Origin: a virus
IMG/VR virus record: IMGVR_UViG_3300029448_000425
Span: 1-24,382 of that record
Length of the DNA stretch: 24,382 bases
Direction: 5' to 3' (one strand)
Under the pieces are notes generated by a model. It was not told where the DNA came from, did not search any database, and worked only from the letters and a program-made list of their open reading frames with translations. The translations under genes were made by a program, and so were the position numbers. Shown one piece after another: positions 7,391 through 21,657 of this stretch (the stretch's first letter is position 1; every line of letters begins with the position of its first letter).

Positions 7391-8500
7391 ATGTCTTCAC
7401 AAATATCCACGGCTTTCGTCAACCAGTATTCTAGCAATATTCAAATGCTTTCCCAACAGATGGGATCGCTATTGCGTGGTGCAGTGGATGTCGAAAGCGT
7501 TACCGGGGAAAAAAGTTTCTTTGATCAGGTCGGCTCTGCCGCTGCTGTTCTTAGAACAACCCGTCATGCGGATACCCCGTTAACTTTAGCGGCCTAGCAG
7601 AGCAATCTGCTTTGAAAACTCTGTGAACTCAGGGGACGTCTCATTGAGATAATCCTGAGCCAAGCCCTGTAAAGGGAAGGTGCAACGACTATCCCCGGTA
7701 GGGGAGTAGACCCAAGCGGGTCGAAGCGCAGAGCATCCCATTGGGATGGTGATATAGTCTCATCTGCATGGCGACATGCAGCGGCCCAGCAGGGCGGGGC
7801 AAGATTAGCGATCTTGTTTGAAGGTAATGTAATCGATACACCCCACAGCCGCCGCATGGTCACAATGAGTGACTATGAATACGCTGACTTGATCGATGAT
7901 CAGGACAAGGTGCGTTTGTTGGTTGATCCAACATCAACCTATGCGCGCGCAGCAGCCGCTGCAATGGGCAGGGCAATGGATGACGTAATCATCGCAGCCG
8001 CGATTGGGACAGCCAAGACAGGCAAAGATGGCTCCACATCTACTGCCCTGCCAAGCACCCAAAAAGTTGCGCATGGTTCGGCATCTCTGACGATTGCCAA
8101 ATTGCTTTCAGCCAAGGAAATCTTGGACGAGGGCAGCGTAGATCCATCGATACAGCGCTACATTGTGTGCGCGCCAAAGCAGATCACATCTCTGCTGGGA
8201 ACTACGCAGGTAACGTCATCTGACTTCAACACCGTCAAGGCGTTGGCTCAGGGCCAGATGGATACGTTCAGCGGCTTTAAGTTCATCGTGTCAAATCGTC
8301 TGACCACTGACACTGACGGCAATCGCGCCGTGATCGCTTTCGCTGGCGATGGCCTAAAGTTGGCGATGGGCAAAGAGCCTACTGCCCGGATCGATGAGCG
8401 TTCCGACAAATCGTACGCCACTCAGGTGTACTACTGCCAGACGATTGGCGCGACACGGATGGAAGAAGCCAAAGTCGTCGAAATCGCGTGTACGGAATAG
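7391..8500 (+). CDS. Major capsid protein, split by a group I intron (exons 7391-7580 and 7830-8500)
   Basis: The spliced product is 286 residues, the main shell protein. Exon 1 gives 63 codons plus one base, starting MSSQISTAFVNQY. Exon 2 resumes with the two remaining bases, so the junction reads ...RHADTP-L-IDTPHSRRMVTM. The downstream SDYEYADLIDDQDKVRLLVDPTS and AAAMGRAMDDVIIAAAIGTAKTGK blocks are characteristic of the HK97-fold capsid family found in many podoviruses with this gene order (recollection). Without splicing, translation stops at TAG 7595-7597 after 68 residues and exon 2 would have no good start. ATG 7391 has AGGAG eight bases upstream; a GTG nine bases earlier is in frame but overlaps that site. 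The scaffold lies upstream and a probable decoration protein downstream. Confidence 0.9.
7581..7829 (+). ncRNA. Group I self-splicing intron, ORF-less, in the capsid gene
   Basis: This 249-base intron can be folded by eye. P1 pairs exon CCGU (7577-7580) with GCGG (7589-7592), giving the required U.G at the 5' splice site. P2 is AGCAG 7596-7600 with CUGCU 7607-7611. P3 is CUCUGUG 7619-7625 with CGCAGAG 7727-7733. The P4-P6 core reads CCUGAGCCAAGCCC...GGGAAGGUGCA, a classic group I signature shared with cyanobacterial tRNA-Leu introns. P7 is GACUAU 7687-7692 with AUAGUC 7754-7759. Two extra hairpins lie between the P7 5' strand and the P3 3' strand (CCCC/GGGG and GACCC/GGGUC). P8 is CAUCCC/GGGAUG (7734-7748). 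P9 is CUGCAUG/CAUGCAG with a GCGA tetraloop (7764-7781), followed by hairpins 7784-7795 and 7800-7816. The intron ends in G 7829, and P10 pairs UAA 7830-7832 with UUA 7586-7588. No homing endonuclease gene is present. The subgroup is not assigned. Confidence 0.93.
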
Positions 8501-12994: not shown

Positions 12995-14787
12995 TGAGGA
13001 TACCAATCTACAGATCTGACGCCCAGCGCACCAATGAAGCACCGGGGCGGTCATTCTCAGCCCGTATGGATGCCAGACCGTTTGTTGAGGCTGCATTGCA
13101 AAAAGGTGCATCCACCCGCGCACTGGCTGACGCTGTTGGCGCATATGCAGAGCAACGCGGCAAGATGATTGCAGAGGCAGAGTATAACGAAACCGCACTG
13201 GCTTTGGACGAGGAAATCCGCACAGCTACATATGACCTGTCCCGGTCAAACGATATTGGTAATATCTTTGATGGAAATAAGCTGTGGGAAAAACGAATGA
13301 AAAGCATTCAGTCCAACGTGCTGGGCCGAGTGAAAAACAGCAACGTCAGACGCAAGCTAGACTTCAGCTTTAACCAATCGGAAATCCAAAGCAGATTTAG
13401 ATTGCAAGGCGTAGTGGATGACAAGATCATCAAGCGCGATCAAGCGGCGATTGCTGCAAGGCAGACAAACGCTGTCGCTGCATTGTCTCAGATCGGCGCA
13501 ACCACTGCTGACTACAACGCATGGTTTAACGCCCAAAACCCCACCATGACTGAAGGCGGCGTAATAACTGGCAAGTTTAATCCTGCTGCCGTTAGCAAGG
13601 CCAACCTTGCCCAGCGTGTGGATGTGGCGGCAGGCTATGTAACCAATCGATATGGCGCTGAACCCACATCAGCAATGAAGCTAATCAGTTTTGTTAATAC
13701 GCTAGATGAAGTCGAAATGAGCAATGTTGATGAAATGCTAGGAGTGGCAACTTTAACCACAGGTATTGATCCTTATGCCGCCACCGTACTGTCGCAAATC
13801 CCAAGAGATGAAGCGCTTAAAATTGTTACAGCTAATTTATCAACGGCAATAAAGATCTATGACGCACAAGAAAAGCTGGCAGGCGATCTTGAACAGCAAA
13901 GCAACAAGTTAAATAATGATGCTTACAATCTGGGATTTACTGGCAAGGCATCGTTGACTTATGCGGAACTATCTCGCGTTATTCCTGTTGGGTACCTAGA
14001 TGCAAAGATCGCAGAAAACCCCATGCAAGCTGGCTTTGCCATTGTAGAAGGTGAGCCAAGAGGGGCTGCAACTATCGGTGCCAGCGCTGCAAAGCGATTG
14101 ATTTACAACTTCCTAGACGAGCAAAACTATCTCAGCCCGGAAATGCGTGACAAGCTAAACAGCCAAATCAGCACCAGTGGAGCTTCATTTCCTGATACGT
14201 CAAATCCAAACGAAAAAACTCGGCTTAACTCACTGGCTAATTTCGGCAAGCTAACAATTGATGAATTGGAAGAAGCAAAGCAAACACGCAGCTTGTCTGC
14301 TCAAGATTACATCACGCTGGAAAACAAGATCTTTACCAAGAATAACGAGAACTTAAACGAGTTCCTAAGATTTGCAAAAGCAGAATACAGTTACACCGAG
14401 GAAGTAGCTGAAGCAGATGACGAAATCAGTGTGGCAATCACAGCCGCCTATGACGCTGTTGCCAAAGGTCTAATTGAATTTACGATGGATAACCCTGACG
14501 CCACATCCACGCAAATTAAAACTGAAGGCATGGCGTTAATTGCAGAACAGGCAGAGGCGCACGAGGCGGTAAAGCGCGAGGGTTATTTAAAATACCTTAG
14601 CCAAACAGAAACCGTGTTGCCCGGAATTAGGTTTACTGTGGGAGCGACTAATCCTATCGGGGATATTAACGCCTTCTTAAATTCTGATGTGCCTATAACA
14701 CCAAATCAACGACAAATTCTATTAAACCGCATTAAAGTTTTGAAAAGCACACGCTTTAGAGCGCAATATCCCGGTACTTCCCAATGA
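12994..14787 (+). CDS. Internal virion protein (T7 gp15-like position)
   Basis: This 597-residue, mostly helical soluble protein starts MRIPIYRSDAQRTNEAPGRSFSARM. It continues with long charged helices (LADAVGAYAEQRGKMIAEAEYNETALALDEEI...FDGNKLWEKRMKSIQSNVLGRVKNSNVRRKLDF). No membrane segment or enzyme motif is visible. Size, helical character and position between gp14-like and a very large core protein make it the likely counterpart of T7 gp15 (747 residues), part of the periplasmic ejection tunnel. Direct sequence similarity to T7 gp15 is not evident to me, so the call is positional. It overlaps both neighbours by 1-4 bases. Confidence 0.65.
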   Translation: MRIPIYRSDAQRTNEAPGRSFSARMDARPFVEAALQKGASTRALADAVGAYAEQRGKMIAEAEYNETALALDEEIRTATYDLSRSNDIGNIFDGNKLWEKRMKSIQSNVLGRVKNSNVRRKLDFSFNQSEIQSRFRLQGVVDDKIIKRDQAAIAARQTNAVAALSQIGATTADYNAWFNAQNPTMTEGGVITGKFNPAAVSKANLAQRVDVAAGYVTNRYGAEPTSAMKLISFVNTLDEVEMSNVDEMLGVATLTTGIDPYAATVLSQIPRDEALKIVTANLSTAIKIYDAQEKLAGDLEQQSNKLNNDAYNLGFTGKASLTYAELSRVIPVGYLDAKIAENPMQAGFAIVEGEPRGAATIGASAAKRLIYNFLDEQNYLSPEMRDKLNSQISTSGASFPDTSNPNEKTRLNSLANFGKLTIDELEEAKQTRSLSAQDYITLENKIFTKNNENLNEFLRFAKAEYSYTEEVAEADDEISVAITAAYDAVAKGLIEFTMDNPDATSTQIKTEGMALIAEQAEAHEAVKREGYLKYLSQTETVLPGIRFTVGATNPIGDINAFLNSDVPITPNQRQILLNRIKVLKSTRFRAQYPGTSQ

Positions 14788-17700
14788 CAAATTTCCTTAA
14801 CACAGACAGAGAAATTGAGCGCTATGACGAGGCTGAACTGTTTGCAGAGACAGCCAAGCCTGAGATGTTTCCAGACATTCGCTCTAGCTTTAACACCGAC
14901 ACAGGCCGCACAGATCTGATGGCACCGCTGCCAAGTGGCGGCTTTGTTACGTTGGGAAGCGAAGCGCCAGAGATTATGGTGGAAGCGCCAGCCATGCCGG
15001 GGATGGGCGCTGATGCAGCACTGCCTGTTGAGGATGACGAGTTCCAACTGCAATCAATCAGGAATTTCGCAGCCAGCGGCGCAAACATATCGTCACGCGA
15101 TGATTATCTGGCGGCTGGCTATAGTGATCAACTGATCGATGCGTCTGGCGTTATGGGCGAAACCCAGCAAAAGTCAGTCAGCATTGAGCCGTTATCAACC
15201 ACCGAGATCGAAGGCATCTTGTCTGAAGGCGGGTCAGTTTTTCAAGACTATGATCCCACCATGCGCGAGAACGGCGCAGCAGCGCTTACCGAGACATTGA
15301 TTGAATTGCGGGTGGATGAGCGCCGCAAAGAGTTATTAGAGCAATATGCCAAGCCTGACGCAAGCGAGGCTGAGACAGAGGCGCTAAACGTTGAGATCAG
15401 CCGCATCATAGCATCAGAACAGCCAGAAATGCGTTCACTGTCAGAGAGCTTGGCAGATGCTGTGTTTGGCAACAAAAACGTGCTTGGCACCGGGGTGGGC
15501 GATTTTGTCACTGCAGGCGTTATGGATATGCAAGAGGGCTGGCGCATGTATACCGATGCGCTGCGCAACGACAGCCCTGCCAACCGCGCGCTGGGCGTGT
15601 TGCTTATGGCGGCTGGTGTAGCAGAGGCCACAGGCGTTGGCATGGTCTTAGGCAAGACAATCAAGAAAAGCATCCCCATGATGCAGCGCGCATTGGTCAG
15701 CATGGGCCAAAACGCAGAACTGCGCATGGCAGAGCGTGGCACAGGCACTACCCTTAATATGGGTGGAGATCCTATGGCGCTCACAGATCCGCTGGTGGCG
15801 GCTGCTGGTCGGGCTGTAACGCCAGCAAAACCGCAAGCGCCATCATTGCCTTACAATATAAATTTGAGCGAGGTTACAGACCCAGCGCTTGTGCCATCAG
15901 CCAGAGCCGCCAGCCAATCACTTTCGCAGGCAGAACAAGATGTTGTCACGGCAGTGTTCCCTGACAATCCTGACGGCGCAATTTTAGAGATGGGCAAGAT
16001 TGCCAAAACTAAAGCGGCGTTTCCCGTTAAAGATGGCTGGTCTGGCAATGTGGAACTATTGTCGGTGGGCTTTAAGAAAAACGGCAACACAGATGTTAAA
16101 TTCAAAAAGGTTCCATACGGGTTTCACACCCCGCCAAAAGACGTTGATCCGGTAAAATGGAAACAAAGTATTCAGCGCAAAACTATCAGAGAAATTCGTG
16201 CGCTTACAACCCGCGCGGCAGGTGGCGACGAACAAGCGCTGAAAATACTTAGAGAGGCATCTTGGTATCGGGATATGCGCGCCAGAATGCGGCTTGAGTT
16301 TGGTGGTCTGGGCGATGTTTACGCAGATTTACTTGGCACTACTAGCGCCCAAACCGGGGTTGAGCAAAACTGGGATAACGCCATTGAAATCATGCGGCGC
16401 TTTTCACGCGGAGAATTTGATGAAGAGATTGCCATGTATGAGGCTAAACTGGCCGCAGGCGAGACTAACCCGGTTGAGTTAGGTCAAGCACACAATGACC
16501 CAAACAACCCGTTTAAATTAATTACCAAGGCGTCTGGTTCGCTATTTAACGCAAACAGCCCATCATCCACTAAGGCGCTGCTGGACATGTTCCGGGTTGC
16601 CAAGGGCGCGCCCAAAACACCTAACTTTACAGGCAACCTGATTGGCTACACTAGCGCTGCAACCGTTGACGTATGGGCTGCGCGCTTCCTCAATCGCATG
16701 ACAGGTAGGCCGCGTTTAGCGCCACCTACTGAGCAAGGCGTTTCTGGCGATCACCTCGCAGGCAGCACCTTGGAAAACCCAAAGGTTGGCGCAGAGTTTG
16801 GATTTGGCCAAGAGGTCATCCAAGCTGTAGCTGACAACGTCAACAAAAGCGGCATTCTGCGCGCTATTGACCCAAGTGTTGGCAATGTTGGGGCTGACGA
16901 TCTGCAAGCCATCATGTGGTTTATGGAGAAGGAGATTTGGACACGCAACGGGTGGACATCTAAGGCAGGCGAAGGTGGATCATTTGATCTTGAAGCTAGT
17001 TATGCCGGGGCCGCAGATCCTGACGCCGTAAAGGCCGCGCGCAAAATTGCGTCAAGCACATTTAAACCACCAACACCACTGAAGCAAAAGACGGGCGAAA
17101 CTGATGTTGAATATCAAGCGCGCTTGGATGCACAGCTAAAAGGCGCGCAAGAGCGGTTTGACGCAAAGACATCTCAGGCTGCAACAGATCTGGAAACAGC
17201 AACAGATCCTGCCGACATTAAAAAGCTGACAAAGGTTGCCAACGCTAAGTTTAAACCCCCTGCGCCTGCCAAGCGCAAACCGCAAGAGACTGACGCAGAG
17301 TACAAAGTCAGATCAGATCTGCGCTTTGATGAAGCAAAACAAAAGCATGATGATGCTGTCGCGAAAGCCAGCAAGGAACTTGAAGGATATAAGCAACCGC
17401 TGGCGCGTTGGGTGCTGGGCATTAGTATAGAACGACCAAACAAGGTGCCAACCAATCAACAGCAGGCCGAAGCTGCCGCACGTTTGGGAGAGCCTGCCAG
17501 CGCTGATGATGCTGTGGTCATGTACCAAATCAATAATTCACTTGGTCGATTTATGGGAACTAACGAGCGCAATTTCAACGCAGAGTTTGTTGTGCGAGAG
17601 AATTTCGATCCAACAGCGGTTCTGGCCAGAATGATGGAAGTAGCGGAAGAAACAGATCAGGACGCCGCGTTTATGTCTAAGGTGCTTGCAGAAAGATCTG

Positions 17701-18116
17701 CAACCAGTCGACCCGGTGGTGAGATTTATTTCAAGAAACGCAAAGACGCAGAATTTGCTGATTTGTTTTCCGATAAGTTGACAGAACTAGGCGTTGATGG
17801 ATTTACATATATCACCGACAGTCGTGTGATGGATCAACCGGGGCGTCAAGCACAGCAAAACGAAGACGCTATTGCTGGCCTGACAGGCATTCGTTTTCAG
17901 TATATCCCAGAGTTTGAAATGGGCGCAGATGCTTGGAATGCGTTAAGTGACGCCCAGCGCACCGCGAAAATAGATGAAATGGAAGAACTGTACATAAATG
18001 TTTTACTTGAAATCCAAGCTGAAAACACTGATATTAGCAGTGCAACTTTGATGCATTATGAAACCACAGTTGGAGAAAGGGGTGGCTATGACCAATTTAG
18101 AGCGCCTGCTAACTAG
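14784..18116 (+). CDS. Large internal virion / ejection protein with a conserved marine-phage domain
   Basis: This 1110-residue protein has an acidic N-terminal tail (residues 1-100) and helical regions. A hydrophobic stretch near 268-292 (ALGVLLMAAGVAEATGVGMVL) could insert in a membrane. A well-conserved-looking block from about 490 to 750 carries WYRDMRARMRLEFGGLGDVYADLL, NFTGNLIGYTSAATVDVWAARFLNRM, FGFGQEVI and DDLQAIMWFMEKEIWTRNGW. I recall this block from many marine podovirus proteins (possibly the DUF7178 family). It is interrupted by a duplicated Lys/Glu-rich segment (754-867), after which GRFMGTNERNFNAEFVVRENFD and GLTGIRFQYIPEFE continue. Position after the gp15-like gene suggests a DNA-ejection protein analogous to T7 gp16, but no lytic transglycosylase motif was seen. 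A small gene overlaps its 3' end. Confidence 0.65.
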   Translation: MTNFLNTDREIERYDEAELFAETAKPEMFPDIRSSFNTDTGRTDLMAPLPSGGFVTLGSEAPEIMVEAPAMPGMGADAALPVEDDEFQLQSIRNFAASGANISSRDDYLAAGYSDQLIDASGVMGETQQKSVSIEPLSTTEIEGILSEGGSVFQDYDPTMRENGAAALTETLIELRVDERRKELLEQYAKPDASEAETEALNVEISRIIASEQPEMRSLSESLADAVFGNKNVLGTGVGDFVTAGVMDMQEGWRMYTDALRNDSPANRALGVLLMAAGVAEATGVGMVLGKTIKKSIPMMQRALVSMGQNAELRMAERGTGTTLNMGGDPMALTDPLVAAAGRAVTPAKPQAPSLPYNINLSEVTDPALVPSARAASQSLSQAEQDVVTAVFPDNPDGAILEMGKIAKTKAAFPVKDGWSGNVELLSVGFKKNGNTDVKFKKVPYGFHTPPKDVDPVKWKQSIQRKTIREIRALTTRAAGGDEQALKILREASWYRDMRARMRLEFGGLGDVYADLLGTTSAQTGVEQNWDNAIEIMRRFSRGEFDEEIAMYEAKLAAGETNPVELGQAHNDPNNPFKLITKASGSLFNANSPSSTKALLDMFRVAKGAPKTPNFTGNLIGYTSAATVDVWAARFLNRMTGRPRLAPPTEQGVSGDHLAGSTLENPKVGAEFGFGQEVIQAVADNVNKSGILRAIDPSVGNVGADDLQAIMWFMEKEIWTRNGWTSKAGEGGSFDLEASYAGAADPDAVKAARKIASSTFKPPTPLKQKTGETDVEYQARLDAQLKGAQERFDAKTSQAATDLETATDPADIKKLTKVANAKFKPPAPAKRKPQETDAEYKVRSDLRFDEAKQKHDDAVAKASKELEGYKQPLARWVLGISIERPNKVPTNQQQAEAAARLGEPASADDAVVMYQINNSLGRFMGTNERNFNAEFVVRENFDPTAVLARMMEVAEETDQDAAFMSKVLAERSATSRPGGEIYFKKRKDAEFADLFSDKLTELGVDGFTYITDSRVMDQPGRQAQQNEDAIAGLTGIRFQYIPEFEMGADAWNALSDAQRTAKIDEMEELYINVLLEIQAENTDISSATLMHYETTVGERGGYDQFRAPAN
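17043..17384 (+). repeat. Tandem 63-codon duplication inside the large core protein gene
   Basis: Residues 754-804 and 817-867 of the 14784-18116 product align without gaps: 21 of 51 positions are identical, including FKPP, a P-x-K-x-K stretch, ETD-x-EY and a final LE. The period is 63 codons (189 bases). A 12-residue linker separates the copies. Both are predicted helical and rich in Lys, Glu, Asp and Ala. Confidence 0.8.
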
Positions 18117-18324: not shown

Positions 18325-21300
18325 ATGGCAATAGACCCCCAACAGATCGCCACAGAGCAAACCCAGCGCGCTGCGTTGGCGCAAGGTGGCGCGCCCAAAG
18401 AAATGGCGGGTAGCCCGGAGAATGCCGTGCGTCTGGCTGGCTTGGGCAATTTTATACCGGGGCCGGGTGTTCTATCCTCAATAAATAGGCTGGGTAACAG
18501 CGTCTCAGCGCCTGTTGACGTGCCTGTACAGGTAACCCCCCGCGCAAATCCTGCGGCAACAAACGCAACTAGCAGCGATGCCCCGGTAAATACTCAACTG
18601 CCGTCCCGCGTTCCAACGCCTGCCGAAATAGGTGTGGTGCCTGACTCAGCTAGTTATTCAGAAACCGCCACGAAAAAGCTGTTAGCCCCGCAGGTACTTA
18701 GCCCGGAAGGCTTAGAGAAATTCAAAGCAATGGGATACAAAGCTGACGGCACACTGCCAGAGGCTGACCCGCTCAAGACCGCACAAGAGGCGCTAGACGA
18801 GCAAACCGCAGAGGCGGCTGTAGATGTCAATGAACTAGCACGGCGCGCCCTGACGGCCAACAAGCAAGGCTTTAAGCCAACCACTGCTGTTGCGTCTGAG
18901 GAAGCCGCTGACGAAATCCTTGCCGCATTGGCGCGGGATGAGGCGAACATCAAGTCGCTGGCAGATGGCGGTGACTTTAACTTTGACTACATTGACACCG
19001 AGGATGACGTTAAGGCGCTAATCACGGGCGTCAGTGAGCAACTGGCTGACGAGCAAACACTGCGCACCCGTGGCAAGATCCCCAACGACATGACGATGAA
19101 TGAAGCGGCTGGTATTCTTGCAGACGAGATTGGGTTTAGCCGTGATTTGCTAAGTCGCAAGATTGGTGAGGGCGGTTTGACCGCAGCGCAGTTTGTGGCA
19201 GGGCGCACTATCCTAGTGAAATCTGGCCAGACGCTGACAGATCTGGCGGCAAAGATAAAAGGCGGCACAGCAGACGATGGGGATAGGCTGCGGTTTAGAC
19301 GGCAGCTTGCAATCCACACAGGCATTCAGCTTCAGCTAAAAGGCGCGCAAACAGAGGCTGCACGGGCGCTGCAGTCATTTAAAATCAGAGTTGACGGCGA
19401 GTTAGATTTGGCGCGGTTCAATGAGGAAGCAGCCACAATGCTGGCCAACGATGGCGGCGCAGGCATTACTGATGAACTGGCGAAAAAGCTGCTGGGCGCT
19501 GTAGAAAAGAACGGCTCACTAAAAGCAATCAACACGTTTGCAGATTTGGGATGGAGCGCCAGAACCAGCCAAATGGTAAGCGAGGCGTACCTTGCCGGGT
19601 TGCTATCCAGCCCAGCCACGCAGATGAAAAACATCGTCGGCACCGCAGGCTTTATGTTGTACCAACTTCCAGCAGAAATAATTGCAGGCATGACAGGCTC
19701 TGTGTTTCGCAAAGGCCAGCAAATACTTGGCGATTCATATCCAATTGATCCTGATCAGGTTTATGTTGAGGATGCGTTGCTGCGCTTTAAAGGCTGGATG
19801 GACAGCTACAAAGACGCCCTGCGCGCGGCATCAATTGCCTACAAAACTGAGGTGCCTGCGGGTGGTGTCAGCAAGCTAGACGTGGACAATTACACGGCGG
19901 TGCAGGGCGATCCAAGATCACAGTCTGTGTTCAGCCGCAGCATAACAGACCTTGGCAAGCGCATGAGAATACCTTTCCGCTTGTTGCTGGCTGGCGATGA
20001 GTTCTTTAAAACAATCAGCCAACGCGGCGAATTATACACAGCCGCCAACCGGGCATATCAAGATGTGATCCGCAATGGTGGATCTGTTGTTGAAGCTGAA
20101 GACGCGGGAGGCATGGTGTTGCTTGATCCTAGAGCAATATCTGAGAAGCTAGATACCAAGGCAAAATACGACACGTTGCAATCGGATCTTGGCGATTTTG
20201 GCAAGTTCACAGGCATTATGCAGCGGGCGCAAATAGCAGGCATACCAGTAGGTCGATTTATTCTACCGTTTGCCACAGCGCCAACAAATGACGCATTGCG
20301 CACGTTAGAGTTTATACCATTAAACCCTTATGTTTTGGGCCGCATTGCGTTTAGCAAAGGCACCCCAGCAGAACGTCAGATGGCGTTTGGCAAGATGGCT
20401 GTCGGCGGCGCTGTCATGAGTGTTTTCGCTCTTGACGCTATGGAAGGCCGTATAACTGGCAGCTATCCCAGCGATAAAAAGCTGCGCGATGCATTGCCCC
20501 CCGGCTGGCAACCTTACAGCTACGTTACCAAAGGCGAGGGTTTCCCAGAAGGCTTGCCGCTCTATGATCAGTACGGCGTTCCAAATGGGCCGCTGAACTA
20601 TACGTCATACAATGGCTTTGGCCCTGCCAGCACATTAGTTGGCTTGACCGCCAACGTGCTGCAAAACGCCGTCAGAACGCGCGACCCGGAACTGCAGGGC
20701 GCATATATATCGGCTGCTGTGTTGGGCGCTATTGATTACTTTTCTGAGTTGCCAATGCTGCAAGGCGTGGCTGACATTCAAGAAATGATTGATCAGGCCA
20801 AGCGCGGCGATACCGCTGGGGCAGTTGCACAGTTCGGGCGCGGTCCTGCTGAAGCTGCCACACCGATTGGCATCCCTAGCCCTATAAGCGCAGTTCAGCG
20901 CGCTGTTGCAAGAATAAACGACCCAACTGTGGTCAAGCCCAAGGATGACATTGAATACTACACAATGGAAGACATGGCGCTGGTGGTTGATAACCCGGAC
21001 GGCACCAAAAGCTGGAAATATGATCTGTACGGTGAGCCAGATTGGGCGCGTGTTGGTACACCTAAAAACGACGAGTGGGCATGGATGCATTCTGTGCTGG
21101 GCAAACTGGATGCGCTGCAAAGCAAAGATAGCGTGTTTGGCGGCGAGCGCGATAAAAACACCATAGACTATGACACGCTAGGCAATGCAAAAGGCGCTGA
21201 TGCGTTTAGCTTGGCAAACAATCCAAAGATGGCGATCTTTAACAACGTGTCTGGCATTAAGATCACACCCGGCAAATCGCCCACCATCTTAGAAGCTGAG

Positions 21301-21657
21301 TTGATCAGGTTGTCCACTATATCCAGAACATGGCCGCTGACAAACAAAGAGCAAATGGAAGGCATACAATTGTCCTACGGCGATCAGATGCAACTGGTTA
21401 ATCAAGCAAAGAACATTACTCAGGTTCGGAAGTATGGTGATCAGACATTCCGCAAGGCGCTCAGTAAACTGGTGCAGGACGATCCATATTTGGAAAGCAC
21501 CACTAAGGAAAAGCTGACGTTAATACGCAAGCTAAACAATGATTATTTTGAGCAAGCGTTTAACGAAATTATAAACAGACCAGAAAACCTAAAAGTGAAA
21601 AACGCCGTGCTTGGCAGGAAAGAAGCGCAAAAGATACTTGAGAGAGGCAACCAATGA
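18325..21657 (+). CDS. Second large internal virion / structural protein
   Basis: This 1110-residue protein has a Pro/Ala/Thr-rich, probably disordered N-terminus (1-110), then acidic helical segments (to about 400). A hydrophobic block near 432-460 (QMKNIVGTAGFMLYQLPAEIIAGMTGSVF) is followed by helices with GDEFFKTISQRGELYTAANRAYQDVI and AGIPVGRFILPFATAPTNDALRTLEFIPLNPYVLG. A second Ala/Gly/Met-rich hydrophobic segment lies near 690-705. The C-terminus is Lys/Glu-rich. Proteins with SYLAGLLSSPATQ-like and RFILPFATAPTN-like blocks are common as very large virion proteins in marine podoviruses (recollection). With the preceding core proteins it likely takes part in DNA ejection. A specific enzymatic role is not visible. 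It overlaps the fibre gene by four bases. Confidence 0.65.
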   Translation: MAIDPQQIATEQTQRAALAQGGAPKEMAGSPENAVRLAGLGNFIPGPGVLSSINRLGNSVSAPVDVPVQVTPRANPAATNATSSDAPVNTQLPSRVPTPAEIGVVPDSASYSETATKKLLAPQVLSPEGLEKFKAMGYKADGTLPEADPLKTAQEALDEQTAEAAVDVNELARRALTANKQGFKPTTAVASEEAADEILAALARDEANIKSLADGGDFNFDYIDTEDDVKALITGVSEQLADEQTLRTRGKIPNDMTMNEAAGILADEIGFSRDLLSRKIGEGGLTAAQFVAGRTILVKSGQTLTDLAAKIKGGTADDGDRLRFRRQLAIHTGIQLQLKGAQTEAARALQSFKIRVDGELDLARFNEEAATMLANDGGAGITDELAKKLLGAVEKNGSLKAINTFADLGWSARTSQMVSEAYLAGLLSSPATQMKNIVGTAGFMLYQLPAEIIAGMTGSVFRKGQQILGDSYPIDPDQVYVEDALLRFKGWMDSYKDALRAASIAYKTEVPAGGVSKLDVDNYTAVQGDPRSQSVFSRSITDLGKRMRIPFRLLLAGDEFFKTISQRGELYTAANRAYQDVIRNGGSVVEAEDAGGMVLLDPRAISEKLDTKAKYDTLQSDLGDFGKFTGIMQRAQIAGIPVGRFILPFATAPTNDALRTLEFIPLNPYVLGRIAFSKGTPAERQMAFGKMAVGGAVMSVFALDAMEGRITGSYPSDKKLRDALPPGWQPYSYVTKGEGFPEGLPLYDQYGVPNGPLNYTSYNGFGPASTLVGLTANVLQNAVRTRDPELQGAYISAAVLGAIDYFSELPMLQGVADIQEMIDQAKRGDTAGAVAQFGRGPAEAATPIGIPSPISAVQRAVARINDPTVVKPKDDIEYYTMEDMALVVDNPDGTKSWKYDLYGEPDWARVGTPKNDEWAWMHSVLGKLDALQSKDSVFGGERDKNTIDYDTLGNAKGADAFSLANNPKMAIFNNVSGIKITPGKSPTILEAELIRLSTISRTWPLTNKEQMEGIQLSYGDQMQLVNQAKNITQVRKYGDQTFRKALSKLVQDDPYLESTTKEKLTLIRKLNNDYFEQAFNEIINRPENLKVKNAVLGRKEAQKILERGNQ

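Follow-up and report, generated by a model that had tools for sequence, protein, structure and literature searches.

A probably mobile ORF-less group IA-type intron in the major capsid gene of a marine phage, and its relatives in other phage capsid genes

The major capsid gene of a marine phage, contained in a stretch of 24,382 nucleotides (the window), is interrupted by an insert that is very probably a self-splicing mobile intron of group IA type (IA2-like). It has no ORF, it appears to spread between capsid alleles by recombination, and its lineage has reached new sites, as a tree of related introns indicates. Most descriptions of phage group I introns concern DNA polymerase, reductase and terminase genes, and their movement is generally attributed to a homing endonuclease.

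Results

The phage and its interrupted capsid gene

The terminase, portal, capsid and tail genes of the window match PHROG families in profile searches, and the nearest named relatives of the capsid are pelagiphages of the HTVC010P type (64-72% identity). The window phage is a marine phage with an HTVC010P-type major capsid protein. Its genome-sequenced relatives are mostly alphaproteobacterial contigs, and the capsid gene is uninterrupted in all 8 of them. A syntenic relative of 33.5 kb (the contig of L115; L231/L232) encodes an integrase, a PAPS reductase, a RecE-like exonuclease, a Gp2.5-like annealing protein and a Holliday-junction resolvase, and its capsid gene holds two introns; because of the integrase, this phage group is probably temperate. 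Two neighbouring ORFs of the window (14784-18116 and 18325-21657), of exactly 1110 aa each, are probably virion proteins, the first of them having no PHROG match.

The features of the interrupted gene are collected in Table 1. Exon 1 corresponds to positions 3-66 of PHROG 3437 'major head protein' (E 1e-13) and exon 2 to positions 70-293 (E 2e-70). Joining position 7580 to 7830 yields ...RHADTPLIDTPHSRRMVTM... without gaps, so that removal of the insert restores the host gene exactly, as the preliminary description had predicted. The ten introns of this kind that were checked in detail (245-257 nt, in all three phases) leave a continuous capsid frame after removal. For the intron of L086, located near the stop codon, the continuous spliced product was judged by eye. 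Automatic P1 finding selected wrong hairpins in some introns, including that of the window, and only junctions checked by frame were treated as exact.

Table 1. Features of the capsid gene and its intron, in window coordinates
Feature	Position	Strand	Description and basis
Exon 1, major capsid gene	7391..7580	+	63 codons plus one base, ends ...ACCCCGU; PHROG 3437
P1	7577..7592	+	exon CCGU 7577-7580 with internal guide GCGG 7589-7592; sequence
Predicted intron	7581..7829	+	group IA-type, ORF-less, 249 nt, terminal G 7829; Rfam, splice check, empty sites
P10 guide UUA	7586..7588	+	pairs with UAA 7830-7832, first three bases of exon 2; sequence
In-frame stop TAG	7595..7597	+	15 nt into the intron, before P3; sequence
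Catalytic core helices	7619..7733	+	P3 7619-7625/7727-7733, P4 7628-7633/7654-7659
Catalytic core helices, continued	within 7619..7733	+	P5 7638-7642/7646-7650, P6 7665-7667/7674-7676
P7	7687..7759	+	7687-7692/7754-7759 (GACUAU/AUAGUC)
P7.1, P7.2, P8	between P7 strands	+	P7.1 7693-7704, P7.2 7709-7722, P8 7734-7748
P9, P9.1, P9.2	7764..7816	+	P9 7764-7781 (GCGA loop), P9.1 7784-7795, P9.2 7800-7816
Exon 2, major capsid gene	7830..8500	+	two bases plus 222 codons plus stop; PHROG 3437

Structure of the intron

The preliminary description had read the insert by eye as an ORF-less group I intron and had proposed a covariance search. In that search the Rfam family RF00028 (Intron_gpI) matches positions 7571-7781 of the plus strand over all 253 model positions. 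It scores 85.6 bits (E 8e-21), where the gathering score is 50, and is the sole RNA-family match in the window. All the elements named in that description (the U.G pair of P1, P3, P7, P8, P9 with its GCGA loop, the terminal G and the 3-bp P10) were identified, together with P2, P4, P5, P6, P7.1, P7.2, P9.1 and P9.2. The U.G pair at the 5' splice site is 7580.7589 (CCGU/GCGG). The predicted fold thus has what defines a group I intron, that is a P3-P9 core with a guanosine-binding P7, the U.G pair, the terminal G and P10. The P7.1 and P7.2 hairpins, lying between the 5' strand of P7 and the 3' strand of P3, indicate subgroup IA; the placement in IA2 we take from knowledge of the subgroups rather than from a subgroup model. 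On this predicted structure the insert is confirmed as a complete group IA-type (IA2-like) intron.

Pairing is maintained over 97 related capsid introns: P3 is paired in 99.1% (72.4% when shuffled), P4 in 97.5% (81.0%), P5 in 72.9% (62.6%), P6 in 99.0% (85.6%), P7.2 in 98.1% (64.0%) and P8 in 84.1% (59.2%), with P7 at 99.8% and P7.1 at 94.4%. A chance match is excluded by the Rfam E-value, by this covariation and by the empty sites described below. In all 36 capsid introns tested the first in-frame stop precedes P3, as it does in 52 of 72 cases when the other two frames are read (p 1e-4); the difference is suggestive of selection keeping ribosomes off the intron core. The lone frame of the intron, which has no internal endonuclease gene, is an ORF of 89 aa on the reverse strand (7594-7863). 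This ORF was considered as a hidden endonuclease, since the capsid intron of mycobacteriophage LittleE has one on the opposite strand, and was discarded as it has no Pfam match.

Empty and filled sites

Nearly all of the best 80 IMG/VR relatives of exon 2 have the exact junction and no insert, in the comparison proposed in the preliminary description; among them are L005 and L006, intron-less alleles with a 98% identical protein. Exceptions among these 80 are L003, L004 and L007, with an intron at the same site, and L067, with an intron elsewhere. A DNA motif scan added L108, L112, L114, L115 and L117 as same-site carriers, as well as the more diverged L085. The same-site intron is found in eight other contigs besides the window.

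With the near-identical L003 left out, 0-5 differences in 250 nt separate the same-site introns, against a divergence of up to 17% in exon 2, which argues for lateral spread with short flanking tracts. The introns of L108 and L117 are identical, yet 49 differences are found in 430 exon positions (p 9e-11). The flank from -50 to +37 (87 nt) shows 0-6 differences in intron-bearing pairs versus a mean of 11.1 in 112 similarly diverged intron-less pairs. The context of the splice site, marked here by a slash, is CCCCGC/TGATC in the nearest intron-less alleles and CCCCGT/TAATC in the intron-bearing ones; the U at the splice site and the second flanking change, bases that splicing requires, were either brought along with the intron or selected or changed after insertion. 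Near-identical introns in diverged alleles together with empty sites support the mobility claimed earlier. Much greater similarity in the intron than in its exons, flanks converted along with it and the empty sites mark the insert as a mobile element, and allele-to-allele gene conversion with short co-converted flanks is well supported by these comparisons. The recombination genes of the 33.5-kb relative (RecE-like, Gp2.5-like and resolvase) favour the same explanation, and a nuclease or recombinase would presumably drive the conversion.

It is highly improbable that the intron is decaying or inactive and that the capsid protein comes from another copy or route. The window is a metagenomic fragment, a point in favour of this reading, but no second capsid gene is seen in it, the core helices are all intact and covary across the lineage, near-identical copies are spreading, and the frame is restored exactly in the ten introns checked.

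In the mechanism preferred here, the capsid pre-mRNA would fold so that P1 sets the CCGU^ site beside the guanosine-binding P7, and two transesterifications would excise the 249 nt, leaving the capsid frame continuous, splicing being expected to occur in the cell. On unspliced RNA the ribosomes would halt at the TAG, ahead of the core. Spread among capsid alleles would proceed by DNA recombination carrying short exon flanks, as in gene conversion within co-infected cells, and on a longer time scale the lineage would reach new sites, other capsid families included.

A lineage concentrated in capsid genes

Contigs with the P3-P5 motif were 39, and in all of them the intron adjoins frames resembling capsid genes, representatives being verified as capsid by PHROG profiles. 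With a looser P7 motif, 75 of the 129 non-redundant introns among the matches listed are in capsid genes, a proportion that is no estimate for phage introns generally since the search motifs derive from a capsid intron. One or two of these 75 are possibly mislabelled (L168 is in the next gene and L187 is doubtful). Also among the matches listed, an endonuclease was detected with none of the 75 capsid introns versus 14 of the 54 introns in other or unidentified genes (p 1.7e-6). The capsid hosts span PHROG families 3437, 1328, 1357, 9953, 371/4523, 283 and 334; outside capsid genes, introns of the P7-motif sample occur in genes for reductase, DNA polymerase, RNA polymerase, terminase, helicase and lysin, among others. 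A blastp component of 58 members was possibly joined by translated intron sequence, and host genes were therefore checked via PHROG profiles. Related introns were also identified at 1768-2048 of L168, within a small gene just after the capsid gene, and in L129, L155 and L202, in an unassigned gene family with no PHROG or Pfam match.

Several capsid genes contain more than one intron. By Rfam searches, a single capsid gene region holds four group I introns in each of L083, L109 and L136, while L105, L128, L144 and L160 have three; in L112, a capsid gene of the same family as that of the window carries two. When 151 introns are placed on a tree, the capsid label takes 12 changes versus 44 in shuffles, a fuller search giving 15. 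The window intron belongs to a group of 16 members (bootstrap 74, SH-aLRT 96), whose introns occupy several sites in genes of capsid families 3437, 1328 and 9953. Introns in the tree mostly cluster by site, the site labels being assigned by regular expression and some of them wrong (e.g. L219, L183). The copy in L083, from an SU10-like capsid gene of family 1328, shares 88% identity with the window intron despite capsid proteins that barely align; that of the same-site L085 shares 83%. Between sites, exon and guide sequences co-vary in related introns. The tree indicates that the lineage has jumped to new sites, some of them in capsid genes from other protein families, and close copies of the intron are, judging from their sequences, spread among capsid genes of unrelated marine phages.

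Possible routes of movement

The preliminary description had also suggested dependence on an endonuclease encoded elsewhere, for which no support was obtained. HNH, HNH_3 and GIY-YIG domains had no match in 36 intron-bearing contigs, nor T5orf172 and LAGLIDADG_1 in 25-26 of them, the 33.5-kb relative being included in both sets, and Endonuclease VII had none in the intron-bearing contigs in a search run without positive control. The HNH search gave matches in control contigs with non-capsid introns. None of these six families was detected in the window, a fragment about 10 kb short of a typical genome; most intron-bearing contigs are likewise fragments.

These results bear on collaborative homing, in which a free-standing endonuclease, encoded elsewhere in the phage or by the cell, would cleave capsid alleles that lack the intron, and the ORF-less element would be copied into them during repair. 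This reading is tentative and falls short of probable: it accounts for recent spread with short co-converted flanks and has precedents in the free-standing endonucleases and ORF-less introns of cyanophage psbA and T7-like phages and in the T5orf172 nuclease adjoining the terminase intron of ICP1 (PMC3984707, PMC10448857), but the nuclease families above are missing from the intron-bearing contigs searched.

Reverse splicing is a different route, whereby the excised intron would insert into abundant capsid mRNA at a short guide match, the product then being turned into DNA and recombined. Late in infection there is usually a great deal of capsid mRNA, and this route would account for both the concentration in capsid genes and the new sites. 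It needs just 4-6 complementary bases (PMC3984707), which fits close kin at unrelated sites with little more than CCGU in common (PHROG 3437, 1328, 9953); an intron persists, however, only where its guide matches the exon, as needed to splice, and the CCGU match alone is therefore no proof. No reverse transcriptase was found in 25 contigs, the introns mostly cluster by site, and neither entry into alleles with C at -1 nor co-converted flanks are explained by this route. As an account of the movement it is somewhat unlikely, although it is one possible route to new sites. Still less likely is a stronger version, namely a lineage of about 250 nt, ORF-less and specialised on tailed-phage capsid genes, that reaches new sites across families with no homing endonuclease, probably by reverse splicing into capsid mRNA and DNA copying. 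Gene conversion between alleles remains the preferred reading for the recent spread.

Discussion

Capsid introns as such are already known, which tempers the earlier statement that an intron in this gene is unusual (PMC3706429, PMC7886860). Like that of the window, the major capsid gene of mycobacteriophage LittleE (Cluster J) is interrupted by a probable group I intron, with intron-less relatives, a U ending exon 1 and a G ending the intron, and its splicing was demonstrated by RT-PCR and N-terminal sequencing (PMC3706429). It differs in its size of ~820 bp, its opposite-strand endonuclease frame, its single site and its phage group (PMC3706429). The same paper also cites lactococcal phage Tuc2009 for a capsid intron. 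The crAss-like phages of the Delta and Zeta groups resemble the window lineage in having several group I introns per major capsid gene, one such gene being split into five fragments; those introns were found via their encoded nuclease domains, whereas the window lineage comprises ORF-less introns of ~250 nt from smaller marine phages (PMC7886860).

The T4 td-type IA2 introns and their relatives, from phage genes for DNA polymerase, ribonucleotide reductase and terminase, have the same core with P7.1 and P7.2 but other host genes, and often carry homing endonuclease genes (PMC2988022, PMC3984707). The DNA of the window intron resembles introns in polymerase genes of Aeromonas, Escherichia and Pseudoalteromonas phages and in terminase genes of Vibrio phages. 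A review of 2014 gives polymerases, reductases and terminases as the hosts of phage introns, the word capsid being absent. No paper on an ORF-less capsid intron lineage or on Phage C72C1 was found in the literature searched, which left out most subscription journals and preprints, and a small, ORF-less, capsid-concentrated and site-hopping lineage appears undescribed in that literature. The window intron is set apart by its host gene, the absence of an ORF, multiplicity and site-hopping.

This lineage is a natural system to ask how introns lacking an endonuclease move, and whether reverse splicing is ever the source of new sites in phages. It is also of consequence for annotation: in sequence records such interrupted capsid genes appear as broken or duplicated, and surveys that use the capsid gene as a marker will overlook them. 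Phage C72C1 (OQ984150) is an example. Its capsid intron, of 251 nt and ORF-less, is 83% identical to that of the window by pairwise alignment and restores the frame exactly on removal, although it lies at another site in a capsid of PHROG 1328. The deposit lists two 'major head protein' genes, separated by three small genes on the reverse strand, and no intron feature, and the intron at 7976-8226 (L001) explains the first split junction exactly.
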